Shown one piece after another: positions 52,104 through 54,767 of a DNA stretch of 64,000 nt. The notes under the pieces are model-generated. The model was not told the DNA's origin. It worked only from the letters and a program-made list of their open reading frames with translations, and did not search any database. Source of the DNA: an uncultured Spirochaetaceae bacterium (GTDB taxonomy: Bacteria; Spirochaetota; Spirochaetia; Sphaerochaetales; Sphaerochaetaceae); contig CALXLB010000044.1 in NCBI GenBank assembly GCA_944389085.1, forward strand, positions 1-64,000. The letters are read 5' to 3'. Each line of letters starts with the position of its first letter. The first letter of the stretch is position 1. The position numbers and the translations under genes were made by a program.

Positions 52104-52120
52104 TTCTTCACGTTTGACTC

Positions 52121-52153
52121 AGTGGCTCTGCTTAAGGTGGGGCCACTTTTCTT
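52121..52153 (+). terminator. Terminator after pheT
   Basis: AGTGGC (52121-52126) pairs with GCCACT (52142-52147), followed by TTTCTT. It ends the pheST transcript and separates it from the lipoprotein pair. Confidence 0.65.
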
Positions 52154-52230
52154 ATCTCCTGCCATTTAAAAAATTTATTTCAGGGAACAGATTATCCCAT
52201 GTTACACTAAAACAAAAAGGAGAGATGAAA

Positions 52231-52710
52231 ATGAGAAGAACAAGATTGTTTTATGCTTTACTCATCTTTGTGCCGCTTGTGCTGCTTGCTGGATTCACAT
52301 CCTGTAGATCAAATCCATCCATCATTTTACCCCCCCCCACGATGAATGAACCAGATGCCTCTGATCTCCCAGGTCAATGGGCTGTTTATGTCTATGATCC
52401 CGAATCAGAACAGGAGGGGATTGTTCCAGCCATTATAGAAATCAGGGTTGGGTCTTTTATTTTCGGATTATTCGACGATAAGTCGTCAAAATGGATTGGA
52501 ATGCAGATTGAATCCGAAAGACAGGAAGTGGATGGTTGGTATATTGTATCATTTCCTGCTGATCCTGGCGAAGAACCTATGAGTATCAAGTTCCGTTTTA
52601 AAGATGGCGATGTGGATACTTTGGAATGTAATGTATCTCCTTTGGGAATTAATTGTACTCTGAAACGCCTGCCTGAACCGATTGATATCACGATTGTTCA
52701 AGTCCCTTGA
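52231..52710 (+). CDS. Lipoprotein copy 1 with in-frame poly-C tract
   Basis: 159 aa. Lipoprotein signal with Cys at 25 (LLAGFTSC; relaxed lipobox of the spirochaete kind), then a short SNPSIILPPP neck and a beta-rich mature part. Nine C at 52330-52338 encode three Pro beginning at codon 34 and keep the frame. Downstream WYIVSFPADPG and IKFRFKDGDVDTLEC are shared with copy 2. AAAAGGAGAG precedes the ATG at 52231; the ATG at 52225 is too close to it. Unknown function, probably surface or periplasmic. A length change in the tract would turn the gene off. Confidence 0.78.
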   Translation: MRRTRLFYALLIFVPLVLLAGFTSCRSNPSIILPPPTMNEPDASDLPGQWAVYVYDPESEQEGIVPAIIEIRVGSFIFGLFDDKSSKWIGMQIESERQEVDGWYIVSFPADPGEEPMSIKFRFKDGDVDTLECNVSPLGINCTLKRLPEPIDITIVQVP

Positions 52711-52734
52711 TTATAATTGTTGAGTGAAATATGA

Positions 52735-52779
52735 ATCCCTCAGATTTGGTTTTTTCCAGCCAGTCTGGGGGATTATTTT
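52735..52779 (+). terminator. Terminator after lipoprotein copy 1
   Basis: Ten-pair stem (52735-52744 with 52764-52773, one G-U) with TGG/CCA inside the loop, then TTTTTG. Copy 2 has a closely similar terminator, so it was part of the duplicated unit. Confidence 0.7.
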
Positions 52780-52857
52780 TGCTTCTTCTTGTCTTGATTG
52801 CTGTAGAGAATTGAAGTTTCCATGTGCTACACTGAAGCAATAAAAGGAGAGATGAAA

Positions 52858-53308
52858 ATGAGAAAAACAAGCTTGCGTTATGCATTGCTCATCTTTTTAT
52901 CGCTTGTAATGGTTGCAGGATTCTCTTCCTGCAAGTCGGATCCTATCCTTATCCTACCCCCCCCAGCAGGTAAGTGACCCCACAGCTGATCTTATAGGCC
53001 AGTGGGATGTAAAGTCGGTTCCCGGTGCTCCTTCATATATTGTAGAGATTGGAGATGGGTATTACATACTTGCGATCCCTGAAGATTCAGGATATGAGGG
53101 AAATAAATTTGAATCTGACAGACGAGAGATTGATGGCTGGTATGTTGTTTCATATAAACCATCTGATACGTTTGCCATGACCATTAAATATCGTTTTAAA
53201 GATATAAATACTTTGGAATGTATTGCTGTTTTCTCAGATGGGGGAGAGATGTTTTATACATTATACCGCCGAACGGAACCAGTTGAGATAGAAATAGTGG
53301 GACCGTGA
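52858..53308 (+). pseudogene. Lipoprotein copy 2, out of frame at poly-C tract
   Basis: Paralogue of copy 1 with the same leader and promoter surroundings (CTACACTG...AAAAGGAGAGATGAAAATGAGA). Signal and Cys at 25 (VAGFSSC) are intact. At codon 34 eight C (52957-52964) shift the frame, and a TGA at 52975-52977 ends a 39-aa product. The rest of the mature protein is fully open in the next frame (DLIGQWDVKSVPG, FESDRREIDGWYVVSY, IKYRFKDINTLEC) to 53308. Seven or ten C would restore a protein of about 150 aa. The tract sits at exactly the same codon as in copy 1. Phase variation is likely; mutational decay or sequencing error are alternatives. Confidence 0.8.
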
Positions 53309-53341
53309 TTCAATAAAGATTTATTGGACATTTAGTAAAAA

Positions 53342-53374
53342 CCCCTCAGTTTTGGTTTTCACCAGGCTGAGGGG
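53342..53374. terminator. Bidirectional terminator, lipoprotein 2 / trxA
   Basis: Perfect 8-bp stem CCCCTCAG (53342-53349) with CTGAGGGG (53367-53374), extended by TGG/CCA; A/T runs on both sides let it work for the lipoprotein on the plus strand and thioredoxin on the minus strand. Confidence 0.75.
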
Positions 53375-53395
53375 ATATTTCTTTCTGAGGTTTTT

Positions 53396-53732: not shown

Positions 53733-54767
53733 TCATGGAACGAGTATTTCGGCAAGGATAGCGAAAGCTCCCGTCCTGTCTGTCAGGCCCATGACAGGAT
53801 AGCTTATTACAGAAACAGGTATTAAGCCCTGAGTATAAACAAAGTCCAGGCGTTCATACATGCTGCCGTTCTTTCTTGTCGTTCCGCCATCTGTTTCTGC
53901 AGTGAAATGGGAAGCTCTGTATGTATCGAGCCATTCATTCTCTTCCAGATATGTTGAGACTGGGAATTCCAGATCACTCCTGTACCGGAATGGAGTGAAC
54001 TCAATCCAGTCTTCTCCCGATGGCTGGGAAGAAGAGAGGGCTAGAATCTTTTCCTTGTCAGTCATGGCTTCTGCCGTTGCCTTGACTGCATTGAGTTCCT
54101 CTTCATCATTTGTGAGGGAAAGTGCCCAGGATTCAGCCTGACTCTCATCTGCAGGCATATTGTTTGCGAATGAGAGCGGTGCTATCTCAATATCTTTTGT
54201 TGTTGTGATGAAGAAGGAAGAACTCTCTGCACCTGCTGTCTTCAGAAGCGGACGATGCAGTACCGTTCCTCCCTCCATCGTTATAGCATCCCATCCTGCC
54301 GCTTTCGCACCAGCCACCTGATTCTCCAGTGAGCCTGTCAGGATAACGAAATCAGGGAGCATATCCCTGTTTGCTCCGAGAATCCTCTCTGCATCTGCTT
54401 CTGTCATTGGTTCGTAACCAAGAGGCAGCATCAGCACTTTGATTACTGTTATTCCATCAGGAGCTGTGCTGTTTGTTCTCTGAGGTGTGTAAACATGAGG
54501 ATAGCTGAGCGTCGAGAGATCTTCTGGATACTCATTCACCTCAGCCTTGCGCCTCAAAGCCGCTCTGTGTTCTGCTTCTTTCTGGGAATTCTCTATAGCC
54601 TCTTCGGATTTGTTCTGGTTCTCCTGCAGAATTACAGCATATTTTGTGGATGGATAACCTGTTGTTTCCGGTATGGATATCCTCTGATAGCCTTTCCTTG
54701 AGGTGTAAACCGCACAGGAAGAGAGAAGGAGTATGGAGAAGAGAATCACGAGAGCACGTTTGATCAT
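53733..54767 (-). CDS. Lipoprotein with endonuclease/phosphatase-like fold
   Basis: 344 aa. Signal MIKRALVILFSILLLSSC with Cys about residue 18; exported lipoprotein. The middle (LPDFVILTGSLENQVAGAKA) and the end (YERLDFVYTQGLIPVSVISYPVMGLTDRTG) recall the exonuclease-endonuclease-phosphatase (EEP) superfamily, but the usual catalytic SDH triad near the end reads LTDRTG, so activity is doubtful. An unstructured Gln/Glu/Lys-rich stretch lies at 55-80. Unknown function. It overlaps the HIT gene by 4 bases (ATGA), and trxA follows after 31 bases. Confidence 0.65.
   Translation of the reverse strand: MIKRALVILFSILLLSSCAVYTSRKGYQRISIPETTGYPSTKYAVILQENQNKSEEAIENSQKEAEHRAALRRKAEVNEYPEDLSTLSYPHVYTPQRTNSTAPDGITVIKVLMLPLGYEPMTEADAERILGANRDMLPDFVILTGSLENQVAGAKAAGWDAITMEGGTVLHRPLLKTAGAESSSFFITTTKDIEIAPLSFANNMPADESQAESWALSLTNDEEELNAVKATAEAMTDKEKILALSSSQPSGEDWIEFTPFRYRSDLEFPVSTYLEENEWLDTYRASHFTAETDGGTTRKNGSMYERLDFVYTQGLIPVSVISYPVMGLTDRTGAFAILAEILVP

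Follow-up and report, generated by a model that had tools for sequence, protein, structure and literature searches.

A tandem pair of probably phase-variable lipoprotein genes, one node of a genome-wide set of G/C runs in an uncultured member of the Sphaerochaetaceae

Two tandem genes for predicted lipoproteins in an uncultured spirochaete carry a run of C's at the same codon, nine in the first copy and eight in the second, which raises the question of whether these runs act as switches or whether one copy is simply broken. The genes lie in the window, the whole stretch of 64,000 nucleotides that was analysed, which belongs to a 2.27 Mb draft genome in 112 contigs. The PheT protein encoded in the window shares 92% identity with its counterpart in Candidatus Ornithospirochaeta stercoripullorum, so that the genome is most likely that of another species of Candidatus Ornithospirochaeta (Sphaerochaetaceae). 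The pair very probably consists of two phase-variable lipoprotein genes that are switched by slipped-strand C runs and that sit among about 30 such loci across the genome.

In the ORF translation copy 1 is open throughout, and its run begins nine residues past the lipobox cysteine. Copy 2 closes shortly after its shorter run, and another frame stays open beyond the tract for ∼113 codons (Table 1). The preliminary description had placed an in-frame C9 and an out-of-frame C8 at codon 34 and had taken copy 2 to be intact for about 115 codons past its tract, all of which is borne out. Its further claim, that one or two bases turn the genes on or off, stands in part: copy 2 comes into frame with one C fewer or two more, but C9, the length found in copy 1, leaves it closed. 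In this pair the length of the tract decides, near the start of a gene that is otherwise intact, which frame is read. The N-termini (...LLAGFTSC and ...MVAGFSSC) contain a lipobox by pattern and by eye, and lipidation of both proteins is predicted.

Table 1. Features of the lipoprotein gene pair in the window and positions of the runs in related family members
Feature	Position	Strand	Remarks
Copy 1 lipoprotein gene	52231..52710	+	ORF from ATG at 52231, 159 aa; ribosome-binding site AAGGAG at 52217-52222; in frame, ON in consensus
Copy 1 signal peptide and lipobox	52231..52305	+	Cys25 at 52303-52305; sequence MRRTRLFYALLIFVPLVLLAGFTSC
Copy 1 C9 tract	52330..52338	+	Codons 34-36 (PPP); on minus strand G9 then TA
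Terminator-like hairpin 3' of copy 1	52752..52772	+	From hairpin scan
Copy 2 as read at C8	52858..52977	+	Signal peptide, Cys25, neck; stop after 39 codons (...LILPPPAGK*); OFF in consensus
Copy 2 C8 tract	52957..52964	+	Starts codon 34; on minus strand G8 then TA
Copy 2 mature domain, shifted open frame	52976..53308	+	47% residue identity to copy 1
Hairpin CCCCTCAG...CTGAGGGG, then T-rich DNA, 3' of copy 2	53342..53374	+	By eye; probable terminator; 17-nt loop, beyond limits of hairpin scan
Signal-peptide runs of the family			L226 G9, L227 G10, L228 G10, L229 G9, L237 G9, L233 G7, L241 G6, L231 G6 (decayed)
Neck runs of the family			Two window copies (C9, C8), L235 C9, L234 C8
Promoter runs of the family			L230 G9, L242 G9

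Both runs are homopolymers longer than expected by chance within an ORF, and no other C/G run in the window reaches seven; the next longest are C5 and G6. Codon usage was considered as their origin and ruled out, since CCC, TTA and CTA are all rare codons. CCC accounts for 8.2% of proline codons, which puts the probability of CCCCCCCCC for PPP at ∼0.0006 per site, and the leucine codons that precede the runs (TTA and CTA) make up 2.9 and 2.5% of leucine codons. Nine C's for PPP are improbable even once, yet the run stands at the identical codon in both copies.

Copy 2 might instead be a fixed pseudogene, closed when its C-rich neck acquired an ordinary frameshift following the duplication, with no switching involved. 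That it is out of frame in the consensus fits such a history, as does the lack of any run in two family members elsewhere (L236 and L240), but the reading frame downstream of the tract is open and retains all nine family-invariant residues, the differences from copy 1 number 38, 32 and 61 at codon positions 1, 2 and 3, and the same type of lesion recurs across the family and the genome, all of which leaves a fixed pseudogene very unlikely. The bias towards position 3, together with the nine invariant residues, argues that most of the divergence arose under coding constraint. Judged by this pattern of substitution, copy 2 is not an old pseudogene, and its present OFF state would be recent or intermittent.

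The probable phase variation extends beyond the window pair, and most of the candidate switches belong to lipoprotein genes or closely precede them. Pattern searches, together with fetched stretches, located 31 distinct C/G runs of at least eight in this genome, compared with ∼2.4 expected by extrapolation from shorter runs (Poisson log10 p ∼ -23). By inspection, about 25 of these 31 runs fall inside or shortly before a gene whose product has a lipoprotein signal peptide; others are found upstream of a PapD-like chaperone gene, beside a YitT-like gene and inside two phage tail-collar genes. At least one such run is present in each of 48 genomes of the genus (median 14), with lengths read from one consensus draft genome per species. 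In ∼1 Mb of sequence from the genus, some of it retrieved around tracts and some from loci chosen for the TA flank described below, the length spectrum was 2313 for G4, two for G7, 26 for G8, 63 for G9, 16 for G10, seven for G11 and three for G12. The gap at G6–G7 and the rise to a peak at G9 indicate that the long runs are a population of their own.

This spectrum also bears on the idea that the C8/C9 difference is an error of sequencing or assembly. Homopolymers are error-prone in sequencing, the assembly is a draft and several tracts are no more than ∼100 bp from a contig end. Error would not, however, single out lipoprotein starts or promoter spacers or leave G6–G7 nearly empty, nor would it account for runs in 48 of 48 genomes, 45 of which share the TA neighbour. 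As a general account error is barely credible, and a one-base error at copy 2 itself is possible.

The runs are of two kinds. In the promoter kind, a G run separates TTGAC(A) from TAnnnT, in most cases ∼100 nt upstream of the cysteine codon; where a tract is preceded by TTGAC and followed by TA, the sixth position of the hexamer is T in 47 of 47 cases. The commonest spacer of these tracts is 19, mostly at G9. Sigma-70 promoters prefer a spacer of 17, so that contraction of the run should raise transcription. Nine paralogous lipoprotein promoters of this genome (contigs C15, C51, C54, C66, C68, C86, C90, C98 and C101) share the form TTGACAAAT..ATACC-Gn-TAGGCT with G8, G9 or G11, near-identical leaders and similar flanks. 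For C68 and C90, the 32 bp upstream of the run and the 75 bp downstream of it are the same, and the only difference is one G. Several of the nine are at contig ends and probably break the assembly. Runs of the coding kind occupy the signal peptide or the stretch directly past the cysteine. Among 21 coding tracts with a ribosome-binding site and start (one ambiguous tract omitted), seven are in frame and 14 out of frame, the one third that random phase predicts. In promoters of the Treponema pallidum type the poly-G run is between the -35 and -10 elements or just before the transcription start; other loci of this genome and two family members have this arrangement, and the runs of the window pair lie in codons 34 onward.

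The promoter tracts also help to weigh a further alternative, in which the runs do not vary in length and the out-of-frame copy yields a little product through transcriptional slippage or ribosomal frameshifting. RNA polymerase is able to slip on homopolymers, and the C run is long enough for it. Such a process leaves unexplained both the promoter-spacer tracts, which are not translated, and the DNA-level length differences between near-identical loci; as a substitute for phase variation it is highly improbable, and alongside phase variation it could coexist.

Slipped-strand phase variation, as proposed in the preliminary description, draws further support from the gene family of the window lipoproteins. 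A profile built from eight members gave 17 matches in 13 of the 48 genus genomes; with L238, a weak partial match, left out, the family has 16 members, 14 of which carry or retain a run in the signal peptide, neck or promoter spacer (G6 remnants counted). L226 and L227 have near-identical flanks, one base of difference in the run and opposite phase, and in L241, L233 and L228 three lengths occur at one place. A single lipoprotein family thus has this type of switch at three distinct positions, which would point to repeated selection for switching rather than to an inherited accident. Together with the length spectrum, the length differences at near-identical loci, the one third in frame and the bias towards lipoproteins, this recurrence favours phase variation of the pair.

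The orthologous pheT–trxA locus was sought for a comparison of tract lengths, and the pair is absent from it in every relative examined. Tract length does differ among otherwise near-identical copies elsewhere, both between relatives and between paralogues. The pheT–trxA junction (window 52104-53395) measures 54–85 bp in some relatives and in others holds different, unrelated genes (ankyrin-repeat, lipoprotein and others; L089, L091, L093, L094, L100 and L108 were compared), like an insertion hotspot. A mobile origin of the pair is unsupported, with no match in phages or plasmids, and conservation along the family alignment is nowhere high enough for viral contigs to be scanned with it. The two genes had been described as duplicated promoter–gene–terminator units. 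The duplication is evident in the 5' regions, which are 79% identical over 146 nt from leader to run, and hairpins follow both copies; a sigma-70 consensus promoter was not found upstream of either, which counts against the switch model, and only TACACT is common to both. A further lipoprotein-like gene of 344 aa (MIKRALVILFSILLLSSCAVYTS...) lies on the minus strand at window 53733-54767, with no C/G run and no Pfam family above the cut-off.

The G runs have a marked flank. On the G strand, TA comes directly after 28 of the 31 runs of at least eight in this genome and after 479 of 650 (74%) across the genus, compared with 78 in a reversed control, and 45 of the 48 genomes share this neighbour. 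Loci L059-L088 and L207-L225, picked for their TA flank, were kept out of these frequencies and of the ORF-located count given next. An intrinsic preference of G runs for TA is ruled out by its frequency of only 4–6% at G2–G6. In promoter tracts the TA is the start of the -10 box. Among ORF-located tracts of three unselected genomes (G000, the genome of the window, G043 and G018), 16 of 19 have it, in all three frames, on both strands and without the rest of the -10 box; a -10 function in coding tracts is ruled out, T being found at hexamer position 6 in nine of 27 (a set that includes the loci picked for TA) versus 47 of 47 promoter tracts. In G324, from another family of the class (f18) and by inference treponeme-like, TA follows only four of 14 ORF-located tracts against 16 of 19 (Fisher p 0.003), while several f18 genomes have it at about half of their runs. 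Elsewhere in the phylum it is missing from most run-rich genomes, for example in G030 (3/199) and G073 (6/368). Seven loci of G324 (L256, L257, L262, L270, L275, L278 and L280) have G8–G9 between TTGACA and TAnnnT, and poly-G switches in promoter spacers may accordingly be widespread in the class, far outside T. pallidum.

It is conceivable, if rather unlikely, that the genus has G(n)-TA as its slippery element: a signal in the DNA itself, which does not depend on gene strand, frame or promoter function and would mark sites for the creation, maintenance or enhanced slippage of runs, perhaps through a dedicated factor. The mark makes a testable prediction about what renders a homopolymer hypermutable and offers an easy way to recognise phase-variable genes in the metagenome-derived genomes of relatives.

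Pfam gave no family for the window lipoproteins. An AlphaFold model from two sequences is a β-barrel (mean pLDDT 81.6, pTM 0.71). In comparisons with solved structures the best VIA-align Z was 9.2, with most rows at 7–8, and the best Foldseek E was 7.8e-4. The lipocalin-like lipoproteins 4gzv and 4qrl of Bacteroides and T. pallidum Tp0751 (5jk2), with Z of 8.6, 8.3 and 9.2, resemble the model in the predicted antiparallel barrel and in a G-x-W motif near the N-terminus, but differ in sharing only 9–20% identity and no Pfam family, and no function is implied by the likeness. These Z values are middling by the tool's own grading, so that the model only suggests a lipocalin-like fold.

During replication, slipped-strand mispairing would add bases to the C run or remove them. 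One third of lengths would be in frame, and the others would yield a peptide ending soon past the lipidated cysteine, so that each cell might make neither, one or both of the predicted exported, lipid-anchored barrel proteins; the consensus would represent a state with copy 1 ON and copy 2 OFF. A G run in the coding N-terminus would likewise act as a translational switch at some loci, and one between -35 and -10 as a transcriptional switch through spacer length at others. The window lipoproteins may be surface antigens; switching would take place inside the population and could confer a benefit in immune, phage or niche bet-hedging.

Homopolymer phase variation is a known kind of mechanism, also found in Neisseria. 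Among spirochaetes, the T. pallidum poly-G promoters (tprE/G/J, tprL and tp0126) have G runs of similar length (∼8–10). The tp0126 tract forms part of the -35/-10 spacer, for which 17 is the optimum, and transcription of tprE/G/J occurs only with eight or fewer G's (PMC7864442; PMC3373638). Many loci of the present genome resemble tp0126 in having the run between these elements upstream of exported proteins. The window pair differs in that its run is coding and past the lipobox cysteine, the targets are mostly lipoproteins rather than Tpr proteins, and the family combines promoter and coding tracts. G/C-tract contingency loci are known from Campylobacter jejuni and other Campylobacter. C. jejuni strains have 18–39 potential phase-variable genes (PMC8355987), a number similar to the 31 runs here, in G/C tracts mostly within ORFs with an intergenic minority; the targets there are glycan and flagellar genes, whereas here they are lipoproteins, many tracts are in promoter spacers and TA follows most G runs. 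The mycoplasma Vlp and Vpma systems also express several phase-variable surface lipoproteins combinatorially, but Vpma switches by site-specific recombination (reviewed in PMC11868660). Within the literature collection that was searched, 'Sphaerochaeta' and 'phase variation' do not occur together in any paper. New to us are the lineage, by which poly-G/C phase variation is extended to an uncultured gut group of the Sphaerochaetaceae, the promoter and coding switches within one gene family and the G(n)TA mark.

G(n)-TA occurs alike in the lipoprotein genes of the host and in phage tail genes carried by this genome. For the tail-collar genes, the viral relatives are too distant for lengths to be compared at strain level. 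The genes are three tandem tail-collar-like genes (G000:C59:22500-27500, minus strand; L051), one of them without a run. In the other two, both out of frame, G9-TA falls precisely where an N-terminal helix-like stretch gives way to the YPVGS/YPIGS collar part; this looks like phase variation of a prophage tail fibre with the signature of the host genes.
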